Positions 2,825-43,526 of a stretch of 43,526 bases of DNA are shown piece by piece. Numbering within the stretch: position 1 is the stretch's first letter; each line of letters starts with the position of its first letter. The notes beneath the pieces are model-generated. The model saw nothing but the letters and a program-made list of their open reading frames with translations. It searched no databases and had not been told where the DNA came from. Made by a program: the position numbers and the translations under genes. This DNA comes from a virus: the IMG/VR virus record IMGVR_UViG_3300025012_000165, positions 1-43,526 of that record. One strand, written 5' to 3'.

Positions 2825-3886
2825 ATGGCTGATACCAACTACGGCGTGAACCACCCGCTCGCAGTGAAGGTGTGGAGTCGCAAACTCCTGCACGAAGCAC
2901 TCAAGCAGACCTGGTTCTCCAAATTCATCGGCAGCGATTCCAACGCTGTCGTGTATATGAAGAACGACCTCGAGAAAGGTCCGGGCGACCGCATTCGTTG
3001 CGGCCTGCGCATGCTCCTGACCGGTGACGGTATCCAAGGTGACAACACCCTGGAAGGCAGCGAAGAAGCCTTGACCACCTATTCGGATGACCTGCTTATC
3101 GACCAGCTGCGCCACGCGGTGCGCTCGGCCGGCAAGATGTCCGAACAGCGTGTGCCGTTCTCTGTGCGTGAAGAAGCCCGTCTGGGCCTCACTGACTGGT
3201 GGGCCGAGCGTCTCGACGTCTCGTTCTTCAACCAGCTGTGCGGCAACACCAGCCAGGCCGACACCCGCTACACCGGCAACAACGCGACCCTCGCGCCGAC
3301 CACCGTCGTGTACGGCGGCGACCACGCAGCAGCCACTTCGCTGACCGCCAGCACCAGCAACGCGCTGACCCTCCGCGACTTCGACAAGGCTGTCGCCATT
3401 GCCAAGACCCGCAGTCCGATGATCCGCCCGATCAAGATGGGTGGCGACTCCTACTACGTGGCCTTCCTGCATACCAACGCAGTGTTCCAGCTGCGCGGCC
3501 AGACCGCTACCGCCCAGTGGGCGGATATCGAAAAGGCCAAGGTGCAAGGCGGCAAGGAAAGCGGGATCTTCACCGGCGCCATCGGTGTCTACAACAACGT
3601 GATCTTCCACGAGTCGACCCGTCTCCCGACCCTCGGTGCCCTTGGTACCCCGGCGACCGGTGCCGAAACCGACTTCCGTCGCGCAGTACTGTGCGGCGCC
3701 CAAGCGATGATCATGGGCTATGGTCAGGACGGCGGTTCCAGCGTGAGCTGGACGGAAGAGCTGTTCGACTACAAGAACAAGCTCGGCGTTGAGGCTGGCA
3801 TGATCTTCGGTATGAAGAAGGCCGTCTACAACAGCGTCGACTACGGCGTCATCACCCTTGCTGGCTACGCGCCGGCTCAAGGCTAA
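2825..3886 (+). CDS. Major capsid protein, N4 gp56 family
   Basis: 353 residues, the usual size for this capsid family. Recognised features: an N-terminal WSRKLLHEALKQTWFSKFIG, then GPGDRIRC, then LEGSEE, then IDQLRHAVRSAGKMSEQR followed by EEARLGLTDWW and FFNQLCG. This ordered set is characteristic of the N4 gp56-type coat protein (HK97 fold). It would form the icosahedral shell with the scaffold upstream. Codon use is strongly biased to C-ending codons, as expected for the most expressed gene. The next gene begins 13 bases downstream, and a strong terminator follows that gene, which should give high expression of these two head genes. Confidence 0.93.
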   Translation: MADTNYGVNHPLAVKVWSRKLLHEALKQTWFSKFIGSDSNAVVYMKNDLEKGPGDRIRCGLRMLLTGDGIQGDNTLEGSEEALTTYSDDLLIDQLRHAVRSAGKMSEQRVPFSVREEARLGLTDWWAERLDVSFFNQLCGNTSQADTRYTGNNATLAPTTVVYGGDHAAATSLTASTSNALTLRDFDKAVAIAKTRSPMIRPIKMGGDSYYVAFLHTNAVFQLRGQTATAQWADIEKAKVQGGKESGIFTGAIGVYNNVIFHESTRLPTLGALGTPATGAETDFRRAVLCGAQAMIMGYGQDGGSSVSWTEELFDYKNKLGVEAGMIFGMKKAVYNSVDYGVITLAGYAPAQG

Positions 3887-3899
3887 CGGGGGCTAGATC

Positions 3900-4352
3900 A
3901 TGGCAACTTTCACCTGCAGTGCAGCCCTGCCCGGCGTGCAGCCCAAGAACGTCTACAAGGGTGCTGTCAGCAAGGTATTCAACCGCCCGGACGTGGCTTC
4001 GGCCGCTGCCGGGGACGTGGTCCTTTGCTGCAAGATCCCGAACCGGGCCATGGTGCTCGACTGCGCAATCCGCATGGGCCACCGTGCGGACACCCAAGCG
4101 ACCGCCAACGTGTTCCTGGCGAAGGACGCCGATGGCTCTGCATCCTCGATTGCCCAGATGGGCACTCAGGTGCTGTCGGCCACTGGTGGCGCAGTGATGT
4201 TCCGCCCGTCCACCACCTGGACCCCGACCCGCATCAGCCTTTCGGACGATGCCGCGGTGCAGTACGCGCTGCTCAAGGTCAGTGTTCAGGCTGGCACCAC
4301 CACGACTTCGTTTTCCATGGCCGGCTACGTGCTGTACTCTATGGATGACTGA
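3900..4352 (+). CDS. Head-associated protein, 150 aa, partner of the capsid protein
   Basis: A Thr/Ala/Val/Ser-rich protein of alternating beta character with no membrane segment or catalytic motif. It follows the major capsid gene closely and precedes the intrinsic terminator at 4370, so it shares the capsid transcript. Position and size suggest a decoration or head-stabilising protein, as in many phages with an N4 gp56-type coat. This is inference from order; no family is recognised with certainty. Confidence 0.7.
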   Translation: MATFTCSAALPGVQPKNVYKGAVSKVFNRPDVASAAAGDVVLCCKIPNRAMVLDCAIRMGHRADTQATANVFLAKDADGSASSIAQMGTQVLSATGGAVMFRPSTTWTPTRISLSDDAAVQYALLKVSVQAGTTTTSFSMAGYVLYSMDD

Positions 4353-4369: not shown

Positions 4370-4393
4370 GGCCCCTTCGGGGGCCATTTTTTT
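4370..4393 (+). terminator. Rho-independent terminator after the head genes
   Basis: GGCCCC, loop TTCG, GGGGCC, then A and seven T. This is a classic perfect six-pair stem with a stable UUCG tetraloop and a U-tract. It lies 17 bases after the stop of the head-associated gene and inside the late operon, so it probably sets a step down in expression between head genes and the downstream cassette. The T-run leads directly into the ribosome site of the next gene. Confidence 0.93.
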
Positions 4394-4405
4394 GGAGGCG
4401 AGAAA

Positions 4406-4549
4406 ATGATTGACAAACGCGAGGGGTGCTCCAAAAAAGCACCGAAGACCCAAGAATCCTACTTCAACAACGAGCCGGCGATGCCCAACAAGAGCAACGT
4501 CCAGCCCAGCCAGAAGAAGGCACCGAGTGGTCCAAAAACCGGGCAGTAA
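4406..4549 (+). CDS. Small basic hydrophilic protein, 47 aa
   Basis: ATG 4406 is preceded by GGAGGCGAGAAA. The product is rich in Lys, Ser, Pro, Gln and Asn, with no hydrophobic core, so it is probably disordered. It sits just after the terminator and before the glycosyltransferase cassette. A second small basic protein (7211-7303) closes the same cassette. Function unknown. Confidence 0.6.
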   Translation: MIDKREGCSKKAPKTQESYFNNEPAMPNKSNVQPSQKKAPSGPKTGQ

Positions 4550-4569: not shown

Positions 4570-5919
4570 ATGCAACTTCCAGCAGAAAAAATGCTCGCCG
4601 AAGCCGTGGGCTACCACAAGATCGGCGAATACGCCAAGTGCGTACCACTGTACAACCAGCTCCTGAACATGGAGCCCTTCAACGCAGGTGTGCTGTACCT
4701 GATCGGTGACGCCGCGGTGCGCCAGGGGTGCAGCGGCCTCGCGATCAACCTTCTGTCCAACGCCGTCTCGATCAACCCCACCCCCGAGGCTTTCACAGCG
4801 CTCGGGTGCGCCTTCAAGGCCGAGGGCTTCATTGAGGAGGCACGGGGCGCTTGGCAAGAGGGCCTCAAGATCGGCCCGTCCGCCGAGCTGTTCAACAACA
4901 TGGCGGCGACCTACGCCGACTCCTGCCAGCCGGAAACGGCGATGGGGTTCATCAACCGCGCGCTGTCCTACAACGCTGACAACCCGAACGCCATCTGGAA
5001 CCGGGCGCTCGCCGGGCTCACCGTGCGCGACTGGCCGCAGGCATGGAAGGACCACGAGAGCCGTTTCCACCCGCAGGTGCAGACCGTGTCGACTCGCCGC
5101 GACTATGGGTGCCCGATGTGGGACGGCACCCCCGGCAAGCGCCTGGCGGTGCACGGCGAACAAGGTGTCGGCGACGAGATCATGTTCCTGTCCATGCTGC
5201 CTGAGGTGCTCGCGCGCTGCCCGGACACCGTGGTTGAGGTCGACGCCCGCCTGATGGATACCGTGGAGCGCACGTTCGGCGTCGTGACCTACGGCAACGA
5301 GCAGGCGATGAAGGCGCACGAAAAGCCGTTCGACGCCTGCATCCCGCTGGGCAGCTTGGGTATGCTGCTGCGCCAGACCGACGCTGACTTCCCTGGTACC
5401 CCCTACCTCAAGGCCAACCCCGAGCGCGTGGCCTACTGGCGCCGGCAGTACGCCATGCAAGGGCCGGGGCCTTACATCGGGGTGGCATGGCAAGGCGGCA
5501 CCAAGTCGACCCGCCTCGCGCAGCGCACCGTGCGCGCCAGCGACCTGCTGTTCGCCAAGAAGGGGACCGCCATTTCGCTGCAGTATGGCGAGGGTGCACA
5601 GGTCGACGCGCGCAAGAATGGATACCTGTTCTGGCCGGAGTCGATGGGGATGGACATGGACGAAGTGTTCGCCATGACCGCGGCCTGCGACCTTGTCGTG
5701 ACCGTGGCGCAGACCCTGGTGCATGTGGCCGGGTCCATGGGGATTCCCACCTACGTGCTCACGCCGCTGCACGCCAGCTGGCGCTACGGCATGCAGGACA
5801 CCATGCCTTGGTACGGCAGCGTCAAGCTGCTGCGCCAGAAGAAGCCGGATGACTGGGGCCACCCGCTGGCTGAGGCCAAGCGTGTCGTGGACAAACTGTG
5901 CAAGGGGTACAAGGCATGA
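4570..5919 (+). CDS. TPR-domain glycosyltransferase (GT9/heptosyltransferase-like fold)
   Basis: 449 residues. Residues 1-150 form four or five TPR-like helical pairs (GEYAKCVPLYNQLLNMEP, AINLLSNAVSINP, ARGAWQEGLKIGP, AMGFINRALSYN). Residues ~190-449 carry the GT-B fold features seen in TPR-linked GT9-type enzymes: VHGEQGVGDEIMFLSMLPE, GVAWQGG, and a late acceptor/nucleotide region (MTAACDLVVTVAQTLVHVAGSMGIPTYVL). Such TPR-GT fusions usually bind a protein or glycan partner through the TPR part. ATG 4570 follows GAGGGTGACAC. The methyltransferase gene overlaps its stop by ATGA and a GT8-like enzyme follows, so the three act together. Substrate unknown; a virion protein or host LPS are the main options. 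Confidence 0.85.
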   Translation: MQLPAEKMLAEAVGYHKIGEYAKCVPLYNQLLNMEPFNAGVLYLIGDAAVRQGCSGLAINLLSNAVSINPTPEAFTALGCAFKAEGFIEEARGAWQEGLKIGPSAELFNNMAATYADSCQPETAMGFINRALSYNADNPNAIWNRALAGLTVRDWPQAWKDHESRFHPQVQTVSTRRDYGCPMWDGTPGKRLAVHGEQGVGDEIMFLSMLPEVLARCPDTVVEVDARLMDTVERTFGVVTYGNEQAMKAHEKPFDACIPLGSLGMLLRQTDADFPGTPYLKANPERVAYWRRQYAMQGPGPYIGVAWQGGTKSTRLAQRTVRASDLLFAKKGTAISLQYGEGAQVDARKNGYLFWPESMGMDMDEVFAMTAACDLVVTVAQTLVHVAGSMGIPTYVLTPLHASWRYGMQDTMPWYGSVKLLRQKKPDDWGHPLAEAKRVVDKLCKGYKA

Positions 5920-6443
5920 ACACCATCAGTGACGAGTACCGCGCGCTGAACGCGCGTGCCCACCAAGACAACGACGGGTTCGGCGTGCGGGGCTTCAAGC
6001 ACCTGCCGAAGGTCCTGCAGGTCGCCGAGCGACTGAAAGCTGAGACCGTCCTGGACTACGGGTGCGGGGGGAACACCCTCGCCGCCCACGCCCGGCGCGT
6101 GAGCGCACTCAAGTTCGCCGGCTATGACCCGGCCATCCCGGAGTATGCCGCAGAGCCGACCCCGGTAGACCTCCTGGTGTGCACCGACGTGCTCGAGCAT
6201 GTGGAGCCACTGTACCTGACGAACGTGATGGAGCACATCGACAGCCTGGTGCTGCGTGGGGTCTACCTGAACATCGCGTGCCGCCCGGCGAAGCGGGTGC
6301 TGGCCGACGGCCGCAACGCACACATCCTGGTCCGCAACCCGGAGTTCTGGTTCGACGTGGTGCGCCAATACTTCGATGTCATCGAGTACAAGGCGGTCAT
6401 TGGCCACTCTGTCAGCATTGTTGCCACCCGTGAGGGGTACTGA
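5916..6443 (+). CDS. SAM-dependent methyltransferase (class I, type 11/23-like)
   Basis: 175 residues. VLDYGCGGNTL (about residues 45-55) is the SAM-binding motif I. VDLLVCTDVLEHVEP (about 88-102) is the conserved acidic/DVLEH motif of small class I methyltransferases. The N-terminal DEYRALNARAHQDNDGFG segment is typical of sugar- or metabolite-modifying relatives. It overlaps the TPR-glycosyltransferase by ATGA and is followed two bases later by a GT8-like gene. A role in methylating the glycan or nucleotide-sugar used by its neighbours is likely from context; DNA methylation is unlikely because no target-recognition region or NPPY/PPC motif is present. Confidence 0.85.
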   Translation: MNTISDEYRALNARAHQDNDGFGVRGFKHLPKVLQVAERLKAETVLDYGCGGNTLAAHARRVSALKFAGYDPAIPEYAAEPTPVDLLVCTDVLEHVEPLYLTNVMEHIDSLVLRGVYLNIACRPAKRVLADGRNAHILVRNPEFWFDVVRQYFDVIEYKAVIGHSVSIVATREGY

Positions 6444-6445
6444 TC

Positions 6446-7159
6446 ATGGACATGATCCGGCTGTTCGTTGGGCACGACCCGCGCGAAGCCGTCGCCTACG
6501 ATGTGTTCACCCACAGCGTGCTGAGCCGCGCGACTGCGCCGGTGTCGTTCACGCCACTGGCGCTGAACACCATGCGCAACCACTACCGGGAGCAGCATGA
6601 GGACGGGAGCAACCAGTTCATCTACTCGAGGTTCCTGGTGCCCTACCTGTGCGGCTTCATCGGCTGGGCGATCTTCGCAGACGGCGACATGCTGTGCCGG
6701 GACGATATTACCAAGCTGTGGCGCCTGCGCGACTCCAGCAAGGCTGTGCAGGTGGTCAAGCACCAGTACAAGACCAAGGCCAAGCAGAAGTACCTTGGGA
6801 ACAAGAATGAGGACTACCCCCGCAAGAACTGGTCCTCGGTGATCCTGTGGAACTGTGGCCACCCGGCCAACCAGCGGCTACAGCCGGAAGTGGTCATGGG
6901 GTCCACCGGGGCCTACCTGCACCGCTTCTGCTGGCTCGACGATGAGCTGATTGGCGAACTGCCGCACACCTGGAACTGGCTGGTCACTGAATACGACCAT
7001 GACCGGTCGGCATCCCTTGTGCACTACACGCTTGGTACCCCTTGCTTCAAGGAGTACCGCAATTGCGACTACGCGGATGAGTGGTACGCCGAGCTGCAGG
7101 AGATGCTGGCGGTCCCTGGCAACCGGAAAGGCTGGGCCGACTATCTGGCAAAGCCATAG
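6446..7159 (+). CDS. GT8-like glycosyltransferase
   Basis: 237 residues. The N-terminus (RLFVGHDPREAVAYDV) and the segment FIYSRFLVPYL...GWAIFADGDMLC identify a GT-A type glycosyltransferase; D79-G80-D81 is the DxD metal/nucleotide-sugar site. C-terminal Trp/His-rich stretches (LPHTWNWLV, SLVHYTLGTPCF) agree with GT8-like enzymes. It needs no membrane anchor and none is visible. With the preceding TPR-glycosyltransferase and methyltransferase it forms a compact sugar-transfer cassette inside the virion gene block. Confidence 0.85.
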   Translation: MDMIRLFVGHDPREAVAYDVFTHSVLSRATAPVSFTPLALNTMRNHYREQHEDGSNQFIYSRFLVPYLCGFIGWAIFADGDMLCRDDITKLWRLRDSSKAVQVVKHQYKTKAKQKYLGNKNEDYPRKNWSSVILWNCGHPANQRLQPEVVMGSTGAYLHRFCWLDDELIGELPHTWNWLVTEYDHDRSASLVHYTLGTPCFKEYRNCDYADEWYAELQEMLAVPGNRKGWADYLAKP

Positions 7160-7210: not shown

Positions 7211-7303
7211 ATGCCGAAGAAAGCCAAGAAGCCGGGAAAGCCGGCACCAAAAATCACTGCCAAGCGCCCAGCAAAACCGCGCCCAACTCGTGGGGCTTAT
7301 TGA
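7211..7303 (+). CDS. Very basic small protein, 30 aa
   Basis: ATG 7211 follows GGAGCGAGACGGCC; the frame stops 3 bases before the next gene. The product is one third Lys/Arg plus many Pro (MPKKAKKPGKPAPK...), so it is unstructured and probably binds nucleic acid or an acidic partner. Such mini-proteins are easily missed. Between 7160 and 7210 there is only a short perfect palindrome ATTGCGCAAT. Moderate confidence because of its length. Confidence 0.55.
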   Translation: MPKKAKKPGKPAPKITAKRPAKPRPTRGAY

Positions 7304-7306
7304 ATC

Positions 7307-7930
7307 ATGGCCACCTTGGGAGACATGAGGACGCGCATTGCAGATGAACTGCAAATCGACGAGTCCACTCAAGCCACCGAGATCGACCGGGCCGTGTTCA
7401 GCGCGGTCCGGTTCTACAACGACAACGATTTCTGGTTCCTCGACACCGCGCCGACCACCTTCACGTTGTCGGCCACGTCGAACTACGCGCTTGGCACCAT
7501 CCTCCCCGACCGCTCGCAGATCAAGTCCATCAGCCTCCACCTGACGCCTGGCCGCACCGAACTTCGGTACCGCACGCTGCAGGAGATCCTGGACCTGGAC
7601 TTCGACGACGCCTACACAGGTGTGCCGCTGTACTGGACAATCGACAACGACACGCTCATTGTGCACCCGGTCCCCAACGTCACGCGCACCGCTGAGGCGT
7701 ACTACAGCCTGCGCTACTCGATGACCGCCAGTGCGTCAGCGTCGAGTGTGTGGACCAATGAGGCTGAGGAGCTGATTCGCCTTCACGCCGAAGTGGATAT
7801 TCTCGAGAACCGCATCAAGGACTACGCCGAGGCCATGCAAAAACGCGGCAGGCTGGCCACTGTGGTAGCCAAGCTGGACGAGAAAACAGTGGCCATCCGC
7901 GGCCTACGGCGCATGAAACCATTTATGTGA
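7307..7930 (+). CDS. Head-tail adaptor (connector) protein
   Basis: 207 residues. The N-terminus MATLGDMRTRIADELQ followed by a short helix (DRAVFSAVRFYNDNDFWFL), central beta region (LPDRSQIKSISL, RELRYR-like TELRYRTLQEILDLD) and C-terminal helices (EELIRLHAEVDILENRIKDYAEAMQKR) match the gp4/gp6-like connector proteins that ring the portal of P22-like and related podoviruses. It would close the packaged head and hold the tail nozzle. Its position between head and tail genes agrees. Confidence 0.75.
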   Translation: MATLGDMRTRIADELQIDESTQATEIDRAVFSAVRFYNDNDFWFLDTAPTTFTLSATSNYALGTILPDRSQIKSISLHLTPGRTELRYRTLQEILDLDFDDAYTGVPLYWTIDNDTLIVHPVPNVTRTAEAYYSLRYSMTASASASSVWTNEAEELIRLHAEVDILENRIKDYAEAMQKRGRLATVVAKLDEKTVAIRGLRRMKPFM

Positions 7931-7940
7931 GGGGCCGGCA

Positions 7941-9212
7941 ATGGCACTGGAAACTGCATCCTACATCGCTGAACTGGTGGCCACGAACCCCCTGTCATCC
8001 GACCCGGTTGGGCGGGGGGATGACCACCTCCGGCTGCTGAAAAGCGTGCTGCAGGCGACGTTCCCGAACCTTGGTAACGGGTTCGCGCGCAACGTCAGCT
8101 GCAGCGCCGGCTACACGGTGCTCTCCACCGACAACACCGGGTTGCTCAACGTGCCCGTGGCCACTGGCGCTACCATCACCCACACCGTGTCGCTGCCTGC
8201 CATTGCATCTGTGACGGCAGGTTTCTACCTTGACCTCCATGTGCCAGGCCCCACGGACGTCGTGATCCTGACCCCCACAGGCGGCACCAGCATCGAAGGG
8301 TCCGCCACGTTTACCTTCGGGCCGGAGTCTGGCGGTCGCATCTTCTACGACGGCGCGACCTGGCGTGTGCACCAGTACCCCCTGACCTCCAACGGGACCT
8401 ACGCATTTCACGGCGCGGTGACAATCTCCGGTGCCACGCACCTGCAGAGCACCCTGTCCGTCTCCGGCGCGGCCACGCTCGGCAGCACGCTGACCGTCTC
8501 CGGCGCGGCCAAGTTCCTTGGCGCAGTGACAATCTCCGGTGCCACGCACCTGCAGAGCACCCTGTCCGTTTCCGGTGCCACCACGCTCGGCAGCACGTTG
8601 TCCGTCTCCGGCGCTGCACACATGAAGAGCACGCTTTCTGTCGGCGGCGCGACCACACTTGGCACCACGCTGACCGTCTCTGGTGCGTCGCACCTGCAGA
8701 GCACGCTTTCTGTCGGTGGTGCGACCACACTTGGCACCACGCTGACCGTCTCTGGCGCAGCGCACCTGCAGGGTGCCTTGTCCGTCGGCGGGGCAGTCAC
8801 CCTTGGCACCACGTTGACCGTCTCCGGCGCCGCCTTCTTCAACAGCACGGTCACAATCTCCGGCACTTGTGTGGCCGGTGCATTCATTGCTGGGAACATG
8901 CCACACGCCTGGGTGGCCCTCGACATGACTGGCACCCTTACCGCCAGGGACAGCTACAACGTGTCCAGCCTGACGGACACGGCGACCGGGCGCTTCCGAG
9001 TCAACTTCACGAATAACGCAGTGAATGCCGACTACGCAACGGCCATGCATTCAGCGGCAAGCGGTGTGCACTCCCTGTCGTTGCAGGGCACGTACTCAGG
9101 CGGCGCTACCGACAAGACGGCTACGGGTGCCACATGTGACGTCCGCGATGGCGCTTCTGCGCTGCAGGACTCTTCTAACCTGTCCGTGACGTTTACCGGT
9201 GGGGGTGTGTGA
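7941..9212 (+). CDS. Tail fibre/spike-like protein with a 12-residue repeat shaft
   Basis: 423 residues in three parts. Residues 1-155 (ETASYIAELVATNPLSSDP, VGRGDDHLRLLKSVLQATFPN) are a conserved N-terminal adaptor seen in many podovirus tail fibres. Residues ~159-314 are thirteen tandem 12-residue units of the form TL(S/T)V(S/G)GAxxLGS, expected to build a trimeric beta-helical shaft. The last ~110 residues (from FIAGNMPHAWVALDMTGT) form a beta-rich tip domain, probably receptor-binding. The following 148-residue gene overlaps its stop and resembles a tail-fibre assembly partner. Confidence 0.85.
   Translation: MALETASYIAELVATNPLSSDPVGRGDDHLRLLKSVLQATFPNLGNGFARNVSCSAGYTVLSTDNTGLLNVPVATGATITHTVSLPAIASVTAGFYLDLHVPGPTDVVILTPTGGTSIEGSATFTFGPESGGRIFYDGATWRVHQYPLTSNGTYAFHGAVTISGATHLQSTLSVSGAATLGSTLTVSGAAKFLGAVTISGATHLQSTLSVSGATTLGSTLSVSGAAHMKSTLSVGGATTLGTTLTVSGASHLQSTLSVGGATTLGTTLTVSGAAHLQGALSVGGAVTLGTTLTVSGAAFFNSTVTISGTCVAGAFIAGNMPHAWVALDMTGTLTARDSYNVSSLTDTATGRFRVNFTNNAVNADYATAMHSAASGVHSLSLQGTYSGGATDKTATGATCDVRDGASALQDSSNLSVTFTGGGV
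8415..8882 (+). repeat. Thirteen tandem 36-base repeats in the tail fibre gene
   Basis: The repeats encode TLSVSGAATLGS-type units, each 12 codons, without gaps. Some blocks recur almost exactly at the DNA level: the 8415 and 8523 units, and the 8631 and 8703 units. This points to recent duplication by slippage or recombination. Unit number sets shaft length in such fibres. Confidence 0.85.
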
Positions 9213-11528: not shown

Positions 11529-11960
11529 ATGGCGGGTTTCATGGACTATCTGAGCAACTTCATGGGCCAGAACGGCGGGCAACTCCCGGCCGGGCTGCAG
11601 AGCATGCAGTCCATGGGCGCCGGCCTGCCGCAGGGCCTCCTGCAAGCTCTCCAGCAGAGCCAGCAAGGTCAGCAGGGCTTCGGGCTCGGGCAGCAGATGC
11701 CGGGCATGCCACCGCAGGCGCAAGGTATGAACTCGATGGCTGGCATGCTTGGTGCACAGCCGCAGGGGATGCCCGACATGGCGTCCATGATGCGTACCAT
11801 TGGCCCGCAGATGATGTCCATGGGCCAGGGCCAGCAACAGCCGCAGCAGCCGTTGGGGCAGCTCCCCGTCGCCGGCCAGGGTCGCCAGATGCCGGGCATG
11901 CAGGGCTACCTTGCCCAAGGCGGCGGCATCGCCCCGCGCGCCATCGTGGGACGTCGCTGA
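11529..11960 (+). CDS. Gln/Gly/Met-rich low-complexity protein, 143 aa
   Basis: ATG 11529 follows GAGGGTATCGAC, a variant of the genome's extended ribosome motif. The product is dominated by Gln, Gly, Met and Pro (repeated QGMP, GQQQPQQ, PGM) with a short N-terminal helix (MDYLSNFMG). It is probably disordered. It lies at the head of the ejection-protein block, which has similar Q/G-rich composition, so it may be packaged in the virion. No family recognised. Confidence 0.65.
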   Translation: MAGFMDYLSNFMGQNGGQLPAGLQSMQSMGAGLPQGLLQALQQSQQGQQGFGLGQQMPGMPPQAQGMNSMAGMLGAQPQGMPDMASMMRTIGPQMMSMGQGQQQPQQPLGQLPVAGQGRQMPGMQGYLAQGGGIAPRAIVGRR

Positions 11961-11961
11961 G

Positions 11962-12366
11962 ATGTCCGCCCTGGCACCGGTGCCCTGCCAGCACATTGAC
12001 GAAGTGTGGGGGTTCGTGGAGCCTCTGGTGGCGCGCTGCTTCAAGAAGATCAAGGAGTACCGCTGGCTGCCGGAGGACATCAAGTTCTACCTGCAGGAGC
12101 GGGACATGCAGCTTTGGCTAGTGGTCGATGAGGCCGATGCCTACGGGATTGTCATCACGCAGATCCTGGATTCGCCAAGAGCCCGCGAGTGCCAGATATT
12201 CATGATTTGCGGGAAGTTCCCGCGGGATTGGCGTAAAATTCAACAGGACGTCGAAAAGTGGGCAATCGACATGCAGTGCACCCACGTTTCGGCGATGTCC
12301 CGGCCAGGGTCCGCCAAGATTAACGGGATGGAAAAAGGCCTGATTCATACGTACCGGAGGTTGTGA
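11962..12366 (+). CDS. GNAT-like domain protein of the virion block, 134 aa
   Basis: Globular protein with alternating helix/strand order (VWGFVEPLVARCFKK, DIKFYLQERDMQLWLVVDE, AYGIVITQI, CQIFMICG, WRKIQQDVEKWAIDMQC, THVSAMSRPGSAKIN). The layout resembles the small GNAT-fold proteins found among podovirus internal genes, which often lack a clear acetyl-CoA loop; I cannot confirm catalysis here. The stop overlaps the next start (TGATG). Confidence 0.6.
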   Translation: MSALAPVPCQHIDEVWGFVEPLVARCFKKIKEYRWLPEDIKFYLQERDMQLWLVVDEADAYGIVITQILDSPRARECQIFMICGKFPRDWRKIQQDVEKWAIDMQCTHVSAMSRPGSAKINGMEKGLIHTYRRL

Positions 12367-40530: not shown

Positions 40531-40935
40531 ATGGCCGTACAACTCAGCGTAACGGCGCGGAACGACCGCCTCAACGCAATCGAGACCACTGTGGGCACCG
40601 CCCCGCTGCTGACTCTGCGCACCGGTGCCGCACCGGCCAACTGCGCCGCCGCCGACACCGGGACCCTGCTGGCCACCATCACCCTGCCGTCCGACTGGCT
40701 CGCCGCCGCTGCGTCCGGCGCCAAGGCTCTGGCGGGTTCGTGGGCTGGGACTGGGGCCGCTGCTGGCGATATCGCCCACTTCCGCATCAAGGACAGCACC
40801 GGTACCACCACGCACATACAGGGCACCGTGACTGCGACAGGTGGTGGTGGGGACATGACTGTGAACAACGTCACCATCGCAGTTGACCAATCCGTGTCCG
40901 TGACTACCTTCACGATGACCGACGGGAACGCCTGA
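40531..40935 (+). CDS. Putative virion protein, 134 aa
   Basis: Begins AVQLSVTARNDRLNAIETTVG and continues as an Ala/Thr/Gly-rich beta protein (LRTGAAPANCAAADTGTLL, HFRIKDSTGTTTHIQGTVT, NVTIAVDQSVSVTTF). This type is frequent just upstream of fibre genes in phages with no known function. Ribosome site GGAGATTGAT. Probably a minor structural protein. Confidence 0.7.
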   Translation: MAVQLSVTARNDRLNAIETTVGTAPLLTLRTGAAPANCAAADTGTLLATITLPSDWLAAAASGAKALAGSWAGTGAAAGDIAHFRIKDSTGTTTHIQGTVTATGGGGDMTVNNVTIAVDQSVSVTTFTMTDGNA

Positions 40936-41645
40936 TGGCCACCGTGTGGACGAAGGAACTCTTCGACCTGGCGTACAACGTCAGCGCAGAGCCCGGCGGC
41001 CACCCGGCCAGCCGCGCGGAAGTGCGCCTGCACTACAACCGCGCCGCCCTGTACCCGACGATGCTGGCGCGCGCCCAGCGCTTCATCGAGGTCCTGGCGC
41101 TCACCCCCGCCGACCGCATTGTGGTTGTCGGGTGCGGGTTCGGGTGGACCGTTGAGGCGCTGCAAAGCCTCGGGATGACTGTGGTAGGGTGTGATATCTC
41201 AGCCCATGTGCAGAGCAGCAAGAACGCCACCGAGGACACTGAGGTCGACGACGCTGTGCGCGCCGCCGGGCTCGACCCCATGGCCGGCGACGGGCTCACG
41301 GTTGCCACCCGCTTGAAGGATGGAGGCCCTCGAGCGCGTGTCGCGGTGCTCAACGAAGACAGCACCAGCAACCAGAGCCGCAACCGGGTGAAGACTGTGC
41401 TCGGGTCCAACCCGACAGTGGTTATCACCGAGGACGTTGTAATCTCGCTGACCGACACCGAGTGCGCTGCGCTGCAGACCAACATCGCCAGGTACGCGAC
41501 TGGCGTACGCGTGGTGCACTACCTCACCGAGCTGGCCAACCCCAACCCGCCGTTCAACTTCAACAGCAAGACCGCCGAAGAGTGGAAAGCGATTTTCCCA
41601 ACTTCGACAATCATTGCCGTTGGTGGAAAGGATAAGGTCCTCTAA
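40935..41645 (+). CDS. SAM-dependent methyltransferase-like protein in the virion block, 236 aa
   Basis: RIVVVGCGFGWTVEALQSLGMTVVGCDIS (about residues 58-86) is a full class I motif I/II (GxGxG-like, then acidic end of strand 2). The C-terminal part is less conserved (VVITEDVVISLTDTECAAL, RVVHYLTELANPNPPFNF) and lacks clear catalytic motifs. Overlaps both neighbours by single bases (TGATG, TAATG). It may modify a virion protein or the glycan made by the 4.5-7.1 kb cassette, or be a structural relic; not a DNA methylase by motif. Confidence 0.75.
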   Translation: MATVWTKELFDLAYNVSAEPGGHPASRAEVRLHYNRAALYPTMLARAQRFIEVLALTPADRIVVVGCGFGWTVEALQSLGMTVVGCDISAHVQSSKNATEDTEVDDAVRAAGLDPMAGDGLTVATRLKDGGPRARVAVLNEDSTSNQSRNRVKTVLGSNPTVVITEDVVISLTDTECAALQTNIARYATGVRVVHYLTELANPNPPFNFNSKTAEEWKAIFPTSTIIAVGGKDKVL

Positions 41646-43526
41646 TGGCACTTCCCACGACGATGGCGGGGCTGCAGGACAACATTGGTTATGTAACCAA
41701 ACCCTTTATCTCGTCTGCTGGGAATGTGTACGCGTTTGGCCGTGTAGGGTCCGTCACCGACACATTGCGCGCAGTCAAGGCGACCGACCCGACGTCGAGT
41801 TTTTCCGCGGTCGGTACCGACGTTGAAATGGTCGATACTGTGGCGATGAATAACACAATCGATGCTTTCCAAGTCGGTGATGTTATCCATATCGTGACCG
41901 GCACCGGTGGTGCGTCTGCATTTTATATTCACTACCACACGTTTAACATGGCAACCGACGCGTGGGTAATTACCAATGAAGTAGTCAAGGCAAACTTCCC
42001 ACTGATAAACCTCACACACGAAAATAGGGGTGTCGGTATTGTAGTGCGCTCGGACGGCGATGTTATAGTCCTGTATAACGGCCTATATGACACCATAGCG
42101 TCCAGCAACTACCCGCGCGTAAAGTATGCCCGCAGGGAGTCTGGGACTTGGACCATCGACGTCGCCGTCGACAACGGCGGCACAATTCCGTGGTTGAGTG
42201 GCGGGGCTATTCTCGGTTCCAGCGACCGCACACACTTTTTCTTTAGTAACTTCAACGCGGACGATGACTACCAACGGGCGCTCACCAGTGCAAACGTACT
42301 GGAGACTTTCCCGGCTGCGTTCGATACCGCAGTAAACACCAACGGCAGGGAGCAGCAGGGCACGAGTTATGAAAGTGGTGGCGTGACCAAAGTAAGGTAC
42401 CCCTATTCAGATTCAGACACCACAAACATATCCAGTGCAAAATTTGACTCCGCCGACGCCCCCACTATAACCGAGGATTTGGACATTACCGGCACGTCCG
42501 GTACTTTGAACGTCTACTTCATGAGTTCGTTCGCCGCGGACGGAACAACACTTTGGCACACATACCTGTCTACTGTGTTCGGCGACATATTCACCCAATC
42601 CAACGCGGATGATGCAGGGTGGAGTGGCGTAACGTCGTTCTACAACCCGGCATCGGCGGTTAACTCGGTAAAAACGAACATCTTCACGCGCGGGAGCAAT
42701 GTTGTTCTCGCAATGTCCTTTGCAATAACTGGCACGGACGCGCAGTACCACGAGAAAGTTCTTCGCGCCGTCTCGACGAGCATTACCGGGTCTGCAGCGT
42801 TCACCCTGGACGCCCTCACCCTGGCGTCCACCGGCGCCGTAGGGAGTATCACTGGGTCCGCAGCGTTCACCCTGGGTGCCCTCACCCTTGCGTCCACCGG
42901 CACCACAGGAAGCATTACCGGGTCTGCAGCGTTCACCCTGGGTGCACTCACCCTTGCGTCGACCGGCACCACAGGAAGCATTACCGGGTCTGCAGCGTTC
43001 ACCCTGGACGCCCTCACCCTGGCGTCCACCGGCGCCGTAGGGAGCATCACTGGGTCCGCAGCGTTCACCCTGGGTGCACTCACCCTTGCGTCGACCGGTG
43101 CAGTGGGGAGCATCACTGGCTCAGCCGCGTTCACCCTGGGTGCGCTCACCCTGGTGTCAGTCGCTGATGTGGGTGCAGCAAGCATCACCGGGTCCGCCGC
43201 GTTCACCCTCGGTGCACTCACCCTTGCGTCAACCGGCACCGTGGGGAGCATTACCGGGTCCGCAGCGTTCACCCTCGGTGCACTCACCTTGGTGTCGGCC
43301 GCTGAACTGGACACTCCCGAGGTCGAGGAACCGGTTGCCGACTCGTCGGCGGGTTCGAGCGGTGCGCGCCGCAAATTCAAGATTCCTGAGGAGACCGCGG
43401 AAACATGGTCCCTGGACAAGGTATTCGACACCCCGCCGCCCGCGCTGCCTGAGGACATGACCGACAGGGTTGTACACACCCCAGCGCTCACCCTGACCTT
43501 GGCCAACGCCGCGGCCCGAATCCCTG
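41645..43526 (+). CDS. Long tail protein with 22-residue beta repeats (runs off the right edge)
   Basis: The frame stays open to the window end and continues at position 1, stopping at 263; full length about 665 residues. Residues 1-~375 are a beta-rich domain (DVEMVDTVAMNNTIDAFQ, FQVGDVIHIVTGTGGASAF, IVVRSDGDVIVLYNG, WTIDVAVDNGG) resembling sialidase-like or propeller-type strand repeats in virion proteins. Residues 380-556 are eight ITGSAAFTLGALTLASTG units. A Pro-rich tail follows. No ORF caller would find it without circularising. Position before scaffold and after a methyltransferase suggests a tail or head appendage; receptor binding is possible. Confidence 0.85.
   Translation, partial: MALPTTMAGLQDNIGYVTKPFISSAGNVYAFGRVGSVTDTLRAVKATDPTSSFSAVGTDVEMVDTVAMNNTIDAFQVGDVIHIVTGTGGASAFYIHYHTFNMATDAWVITNEVVKANFPLINLTHENRGVGIVVRSDGDVIVLYNGLYDTIASSNYPRVKYARRESGTWTIDVAVDNGGTIPWLSGGAILGSSDRTHFFFSNFNADDDYQRALTSANVLETFPAAFDTAVNTNGREQQGTSYESGGVTKVRYPYSDSDTTNISSAKFDSADAPTITEDLDITGTSGTLNVYFMSSFAADGTTLWHTYLSTVFGDIFTQSNADDAGWSGVTSFYNPASAVNSVKTNIFTRGSNVVLAMSFAITGTDAQYHEKVLRAVSTSITGSAAFTLDALTLASTGAVGSITGSAAFTLGALTLASTGTTGSITGSAAFTLGALTLASTGTTGSITGSAAFTLDALTLASTGAVGSITGSAAFTLGALTLASTGAVGSITGSAAFTLGALTLVSVADVGAASITGSAAFTLGALTLASTGTVGSITGSAAFTLGALTLVSAAELDTPEVEEPVADSSAGSSGARRKFKIPEETAETWSLDKVFDTPPPALPEDMTDRVVHTPALTLTLANAAARIP
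42782..43312 (+). repeat. Eight 66-base tandem repeats in the long tail protein
   Basis: Units start at 42782, 42848, 42914, 42980, 43046, 43112, 43184 and 43250. Seven are 22 codons; the sixth has two extra codons and the last is truncated. Several are almost identical at DNA level, indicating recent duplication. Confidence 0.9.
43380..43526 (+). repeat. Terminal overlap with bases 1-147 (circular map junction)
   Basis: The 147 bases repeat positions 1-147 with one mismatch, G127 versus A43506, which changes Ser to Asn in the tail protein. Since the junction falls inside a gene that reads through in frame, it marks an assembly overlap of a circular or terminally redundant, permuted genome rather than a functional end. 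Confidence 0.9.

Follow-up and report, generated by a model that had tools for sequence, protein, structure and literature searches.

Virion glycosylation by phage-encoded glycosyltransferase and methyltransferase genes is already known from mycobacteriophages of cluster O and others, a few of which have been shown to carry glycosylated heads, with altered immune recognition as a consequence. In cluster O mycobacteriophages, according to PMC11600133, which cites Freeman et al. 2023 (as does PMC12619734), an O-methyltransferase and three glycosyltransferases modify the capsid and tail tube. Among bacterial systems, the TPR domain of FlmG binds flagellin and is required for flagellin glycosylation (PMC7591256). 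Here we describe a three-gene cassette in a 43.5-kb virus record, which we analyzed over its whole length (the window). This cassette is likely dedicated to O-glycosylation of capsid proteins, acting on the head shell (the major capsid protein [MCP] and/or the cement protein) and methylating the glycan. Its new aspects relative to the described systems are the type of enzyme, a tight linkage to the capsid gene that holds in two capsid lineages, the way the terminator-like site is placed, and an apparently wide distribution. A literature search, with most subscription journals outside its scope, found no description of a phage cassette pairing a TPR-glycosyltransferase (TPR-GT) with a capsid.

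An ORF and profile scan of the window recovered the gene set of a short-tailed phage, including a portal, a terminase, internal virion proteins, a DNA polymerase, and a primase/helicase. The cassette lies on the + strand, where the gene order is MCP, cement, TPR-GT, SAM methyltransferase, GT8-like transferase, and adaptor-like protein (Table 1). This layout had been predicted from the letters of the DNA, and every element of it was recovered: three ORFs placed between the head genes and the adaptor, the first two sharing an ATGA (5916–5919) and the last two separated by two bases (6444–6445). In addition to its Pfam match, the MCP matches the major head protein family phrog_334 and the MCP of Ralstonia phage GP4 (8h89_A, 7e-47). 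The original prediction also placed a second methyltransferase-like gene before a long tail protein. Such a gene is present, but its matches are weak; given its location elsewhere in the genome and Pfam scores that all fall below cutoff, it is not part of the cassette as we define it.

Table 1 Features of the capsid-linked cassette and its surroundings, in window coordinates
Feature	Position	Strand	Basis
Major capsid protein (MCP), PF13252, N4 gp56-type / Ralstonia GP4 gp2-type; proposed acceptor	2825..3886	+	Pfam Phage_capsid_3 4.4e-68
Candidate acceptor loop in MCP, residues 171–179 (TSLTASTSN); SLSATTTxA in many cassette-bearing relatives	3335..3361	+	Alignment
Capsid cement (decoration) protein, 150 aa; alternative acceptor	3900..4352	+	AlphaFold pLDDT 82; VIA fold matches
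Intrinsic-terminator-like hairpin (GGCCCCTTCGGGGGCC ATTTTTTT) then seven Ts, between cement and cassette	4370..4394	+	Sequence
TPR-glycosyltransferase, 449 aa	4570..5919	+	Pfam TPR repeats; fold; alignments
Small class I SAM methyltransferase, 175 aa	5916..6443	+	Pfam Methyltransf_23 34.3 bits (cutoff 27); phrog_24759 1e-18
GT8-like (GT-A) glycosyltransferase, 237 aa	6446..7159	+	Pfam Glyco_transf_8 30.7 bits (cutoff 24.3); phrog_28018 6.6e-40
Head-tail adaptor-like protein, end of cassette interval	7307..7930	+	phrog_19385 6.8e-13; phrog_6013 tail protein 0.023; syntenic in relatives
Repeat-rich tail protein	7941..9212	+	phrog_11355/6465 tail
Second gene with weak methyltransferase similarity, upstream of the other repeat-rich tail protein	40935..41645	+	Methyltransf_11 6e-4, PF13489 4.8e-4, both below cutoff

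Several further features of the window deserve mention. The right-end ORF (41645–43526) continues in frame at positions 1–263 and would encode a repeat-rich tail protein of 714 aa if joined; the join sits in a near-duplicate stretch, and circularity is likely while the exact joining point is unsure. Two tiny lysine-rich ORFs flank the cassette (4406–4549, 47 aa; 7211–7303, 30 aa), and the cassette-free Paracoccus phage KLEP18-1 also has small genes annotated in the corresponding interval. Between the nozzle and the internal virion proteins lies a conserved gene (11911–12366) in synteny with genes annotated as acyl-/acetyltransferases in related phages; its product may be structural, or it may be one more enzyme that modifies the virion.

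The AlphaFold model of the TPR-GT, built with 43 aligned sequences (pLDDT 95, pTM 0.90), predicts a TPR superhelix (residues 1–174) joined to a GT-B domain (residues 177–449). In whole-chain Foldseek comparisons, SPINDLY and O-GlcNAc transferases (OGT) ranked on top. The catalytic domain matched GT9 structures in VIA, namely 3tov (Z 16.6, 3.2 Å over 247 residues) and WaaF (1psw, Z 16.1), as well as the protein heptosyltransferase TibC (Z 15.5). The predicted structure therefore agrees with the initial description of this gene product as a TPR-linked GT9-like transferase. At the level of Pfam, the glycosyltransferase part of the window protein has no match of its own, and Glyco_transf_9 is found in 2 of 43 relatives (best E 3.8e-4). 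Conserved stretches in the alignment include a GEQGxGDE loop, W-x-GG, S-x-QY, and H-xx-G.

The assignments of the other two products, as a small SAM methyltransferase and a GT8-like transferase with a DxD motif, proved sound, both scoring above their Pfam cutoffs and retaining their motifs across alignments. In the methyltransferase, LDYGCG (the glycine-rich loop of motif I) and YDP are invariant or nearly so, and DGRNAH is invariant. In the GT8-like enzyme, D79 and D81 of the DGD sequence (the DxD metal site) are invariant. The C-terminal motif HxxGxxKPW of the LgtC/glycogenin type does not occur in its alignment, where a conserved HYTxGxPCF is found instead, and for this reason we refer to the enzyme as GT8-like rather than GT8. 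Judging from the conservation of their catalytic motifs, the cassette enzymes look active.

We searched IMG/VR using the TPR-GT alignment as query; a single-protein query returned one locus only. Clustering of the TPR-GTs at 90% identity left 100 non-redundant sequences, of which 72 have 2.5 kb or more of upstream DNA and 63 have 4 kb or more on the downstream side. An MCP gene lies upstream of the TPR-GT in 71 of these 72 loci, a figure that holds for the nearer relatives only, the loci having been ranked by TPR-GT similarity and not by context. At the sole exception, L165, a capsid gene lies downstream. The capsids fall into two types, PF13252 (55 loci) and phrog_1328 (16 loci), the second of which escaped the PF13252-type profile. 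A methyltransferase follows the TPR-GT in 53 of the 63 loci and a GT8-like gene in 56, while ten keep the TPR-GT without a methyltransferase in the stretch examined. The search for the same three genes beside N4 gp56-type capsids, suggested with the original prediction, thus returned a PF13252 capsid at 55 of 72 loci, with the methyltransferase and GT8-like genes usually following. When loci were instead retrieved with the GT8-like protein, only 14 of 80 had a PF13252- or phrog_1328-type capsid. Taken together, these counts indicate a TPR-GT tied firmly to the capsid gene and partners that are found in other settings too. Viral contigs abound in members of the GT8-like family (at least 598 confirmed matches), and the loci retrieved with the GT8-like protein (L002–L081) present mostly other contexts, including contigs of 50–188 kb.

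Closer to the window, all three genes are present in each of seven relatives whose capsids are 77–86% identical, at 54–69% identity, and the GenBank phage MW202512 has the same gene order at 28–49% identity. The gene order thus persists in close relatives, in this GenBank phage, and in dozens of IMG/VR contigs that are only distantly related; the cassette is not a chance insertion. Capsids of the same family also occur without it, in Microcystis phage Mae-JY35, Rhizobium phage RHph_Y1_10, Paracoccus phage KLEP18-1, and IMG/VR contigs. In these cassette-free relatives, the adaptor gene comes after the cement-position protein with no cassette between them, and that protein is shorter than in cassette-bearing phages (mean 133 versus 152 aa). 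The capsid tree requires no fewer than five changes between presence and absence of the cassette, of which two or more fall on branches with strong support. The existence of cassette-free relatives and these repeated changes of state lead us to view the cassette as an optional module occupying a fixed slot. Since phages with the same capsid do without it, the modification would be dispensable in some lineages.

A further element of the slot is a terminator-like site between the cement gene and the TPR-GT, found at 35 of 74 non-redundant cassette loci. Control stretches of equal length inside the capsid and TPR-GT genes contained such a site in 1 of 74 and 0 of 73 cases, respectively. The position of the hairpin is kept across loci though the sequences differ. 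Most simply, this arrangement would let capsid and cement proteins be made in bulk while read-through supplies catalytic amounts of the enzymes.

These positional data bear on the target of the enzymes. The GT9-like domain is a relative of LPS heptosyltransferases, which also belong to GT9, as the WaaF match illustrates, and phage glycosyltransferases that change O antigens are well known (PMC12619734 also describes them). Accordingly, host LPS or some other glycan of the cell surface might be what the cassette modifies, leading to serotype conversion or superinfection exclusion. We consider this unlikely in view of the capsid-locked position (71 of 72 loci) within the late gene block and of the TPR fusion, which is typical of protein-directed transferases. 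Moreover, the window yielded no match to the phage-integrase family, the cassette encodes no membrane protein or flippase, and hydropathy revealed no clear transmembrane segment in its enzymes.

A somewhat smaller chance attaches to glycosylation of a tail protein instead of the head shell, through the Ser/Thr-rich repeats of the product of 7941–9212 or of the ORF running from 41645 to the end. Such repeats were among the substrates first suggested; the former gene is near the cassette, and the tail tube is a glycosylated structure in mycobacteriophages (PMC11600133). However, in 46 of 63 cassette loci fewer than 300 nt separate the adaptor and nozzle genes, leaving no room for a gene of the 7941–9212 type. 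We disfavor the tail repeats, and reject them as the main substrate, because most cassette loci lack this gene. It also ranks among the fastest-evolving late genes, with 38–47% identity in the closest relatives.

Bacterial homologues offer a third potential target. TPR-GT homologues lie within ~6 kb of flagellin genes at 11 of 79 bacterial loci, in alpha- and gammaproteobacteria, planctomycetes, and others, and a Phenylobacterium homologue beside several flagellin genes aligns across the whole phage protein (E 1.6e-49). By analogy, the cassette would modify host flagellin or pilin during infection, an idea we find improbable in that the phage copies travel with capsid genes and not with early or host-takeover genes. 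In other bacterial loci, TPR-GT, methyltransferase, and GT8-like genes form arrays; all three occur together at nine loci, one of which has phage capsid genes. Seen against these arrays, the three phage genes resemble a small excerpt from a bacterial island for protein glycosylation. Eight loci with all three genes (L284, L285, L286, L289, L293, L295, L306, and L316) include several with at least three TPR-GT matches, and among them a flagellin gene is nearby at L306 only. Glycosylation of modified phage DNA bases, for which glycosyltransferases exist in DNA-hypermodifying phages (Pyle et al. 2024, cited in PMC12619734), is the least probable reading, given the capsid-adjoining position, the TPR domain, and the lack of a recognizable base-modification gene among the ORFs scanned.

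The central idea of the original prediction was glycosylation of a virion protein by the phage that encodes it, with the TPR domain docking the substrate. The fold, the bacterial homologues beside flagellin genes, and the capsid-locked order all strengthen this idea; among its candidate substrates, the capsid (or the cement) now takes precedence over the tail repeats. Our favored acceptor is the MCP, or else the cement protein, the former being preferred because it is the only upstream partner common to both capsid lineages. The candidate MCP loop aligns within the A-domain of the GP4 MCP (residues 141–307; PMC9698820). In the PF13252 lineage, residue 174 of this loop is Ser or Thr in 89% of 61 cassette-bearing versus 5% of 19 cassette-free MCPs, an enrichment that comes down to only two independent contrasts where branches are well supported and is inseparable from shared ancestry. 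Two contrasts prove nothing alone, and we treat the loop as a lead and not as an established acceptor.

In the PF13252 lineage, the gene before the cassette encodes, by its predicted structure, an Ig-like capsid cement of the GP4/Pam1/KHP type. The cement model matched GP4 cement in VIA (8h89_J; Z 15.2, 2.4 Å over 138 residues), followed by the cements of Pam1 (Z 10.8) and KHP40 (Z 10.7). GP4 cement forms trimers on the outer capsid surface at quasi-threefold axes (PMC9698820). The N terminus of the cement (MATxTxS/T) is Thr-rich, with T5 present in 40 of 40 aligned rows, and we considered this TxTxT motif as a glycosylation tag. We rejected it: the N termini of related cements face the capsid (PMC9698820), a role at this interface would explain the motif equally well, and, like the MCP loop, it is inseparable from shared ancestry. 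With its probable location against the capsid in this fold family, the N terminus would be a poor glycosylation site. Ser plus Thr content (22.7% versus 19.2%) was not decisive either. The idea of the cement as the only substrate is weakened by the 16 loci with phrog_1328 capsids, where the cement model matched no protein. Small proteins encoded behind these capsids include a family of 107–123 aa, and some loci carry an apparent extra transferase. Directly behind the phrog_1328-type capsid, three loci (L229:5774–6250, L242:5756–6295, and L260:5441–5968) encode a protein with an IVGHGPS-like start, possibly a sugar transferase. In three cassette phages (L147, L182, and L221), a 145-aa protein without a cement-profile match is found behind the capsid; these may be divergent cements or other proteins.

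How might a capsid-directed module operate? Late in infection, read-through past the terminator behind the capsid and cement genes would supply the cytosol with a little of each of the three enzymes. Through its TPR superhelix, the TPR-GT would dock newly made head protein, allowing its GT-B domain to add a first sugar to Ser or Thr residues of the MCP and/or cement. The GT8-like enzyme could then extend the glycan, and the methyltransferase, if the sugar is indeed its target, would methylate it before or during head assembly. Such a modification may benefit the phage by shielding or stabilizing the head. We can also envision, with somewhat less than even confidence, a more specific arrangement: many environmental short-tailed phages, with capsids of two families, would keep as a permanent component of their head module a FlmG-like system, related to bacterial flagellin-glycosylation islands, that glycosylates the MCP itself, for example at the SLSATTT loop, and methylates the glycan.

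If the head shell is the target, capsid glycosylation would be a general virion feature across dozens of diverse environmental phages, and sugar-coated heads may be much commoner than thought. The cassette would tie phage capsid glycosylation to bacterial flagellin glycosylation, and it would constitute a cloneable enzyme set in which the TPR domain should choose the acceptor. The proposal predicts that capsid proteins of cassette phages are heavier than their gene-derived mass.

As with the virion-glycosylation genes of mycobacteriophages, tandem phage glycosyltransferases and a methyltransferase sit among virion genes; the capsid is modified there and is proposed to be modified here. The cassette differs from those systems in its TPR-docked GT-B enzyme and in its occurrence in short-tailed phages of other hosts, and tblastn (E 1e-3) with the TPR-GT and the GT8-like protein matched 6 and 18 records, respectively, none of them from a mycobacteriophage. 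The Ralstonia phage GP4 head (8h89) shares the MCP family and the cement fold, and a text search of the paper describing it returned no mention of "glyco" (PMC9698820). OGT and SPINDLY (GT41) likewise fuse a TPR superhelix to a GT-B domain; over the whole chain, however, they reach a TM of only ~0.46 at 14–15% identity, and the phage catalytic domain fits GT9 well. TibC, a GT9-like GT-B enzyme, is protein-directed. It lacks a TPR domain, forms a dodecamer with iron, and acts on autotransporters. FlmG of Caulobacter (PMC7591256) combines an N-terminal TPR domain with a C-terminal GT-B domain, as the phage enzyme does, and it is a cytosolic enzyme that modifies a self-assembling structural protein, two properties that we predict the phage enzyme to share. 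FlmG, which transfers pseudaminic acid, is longer than the phage enzyme (596 versus 449 aa), and the phage gene is set apart by its place beside capsid genes.
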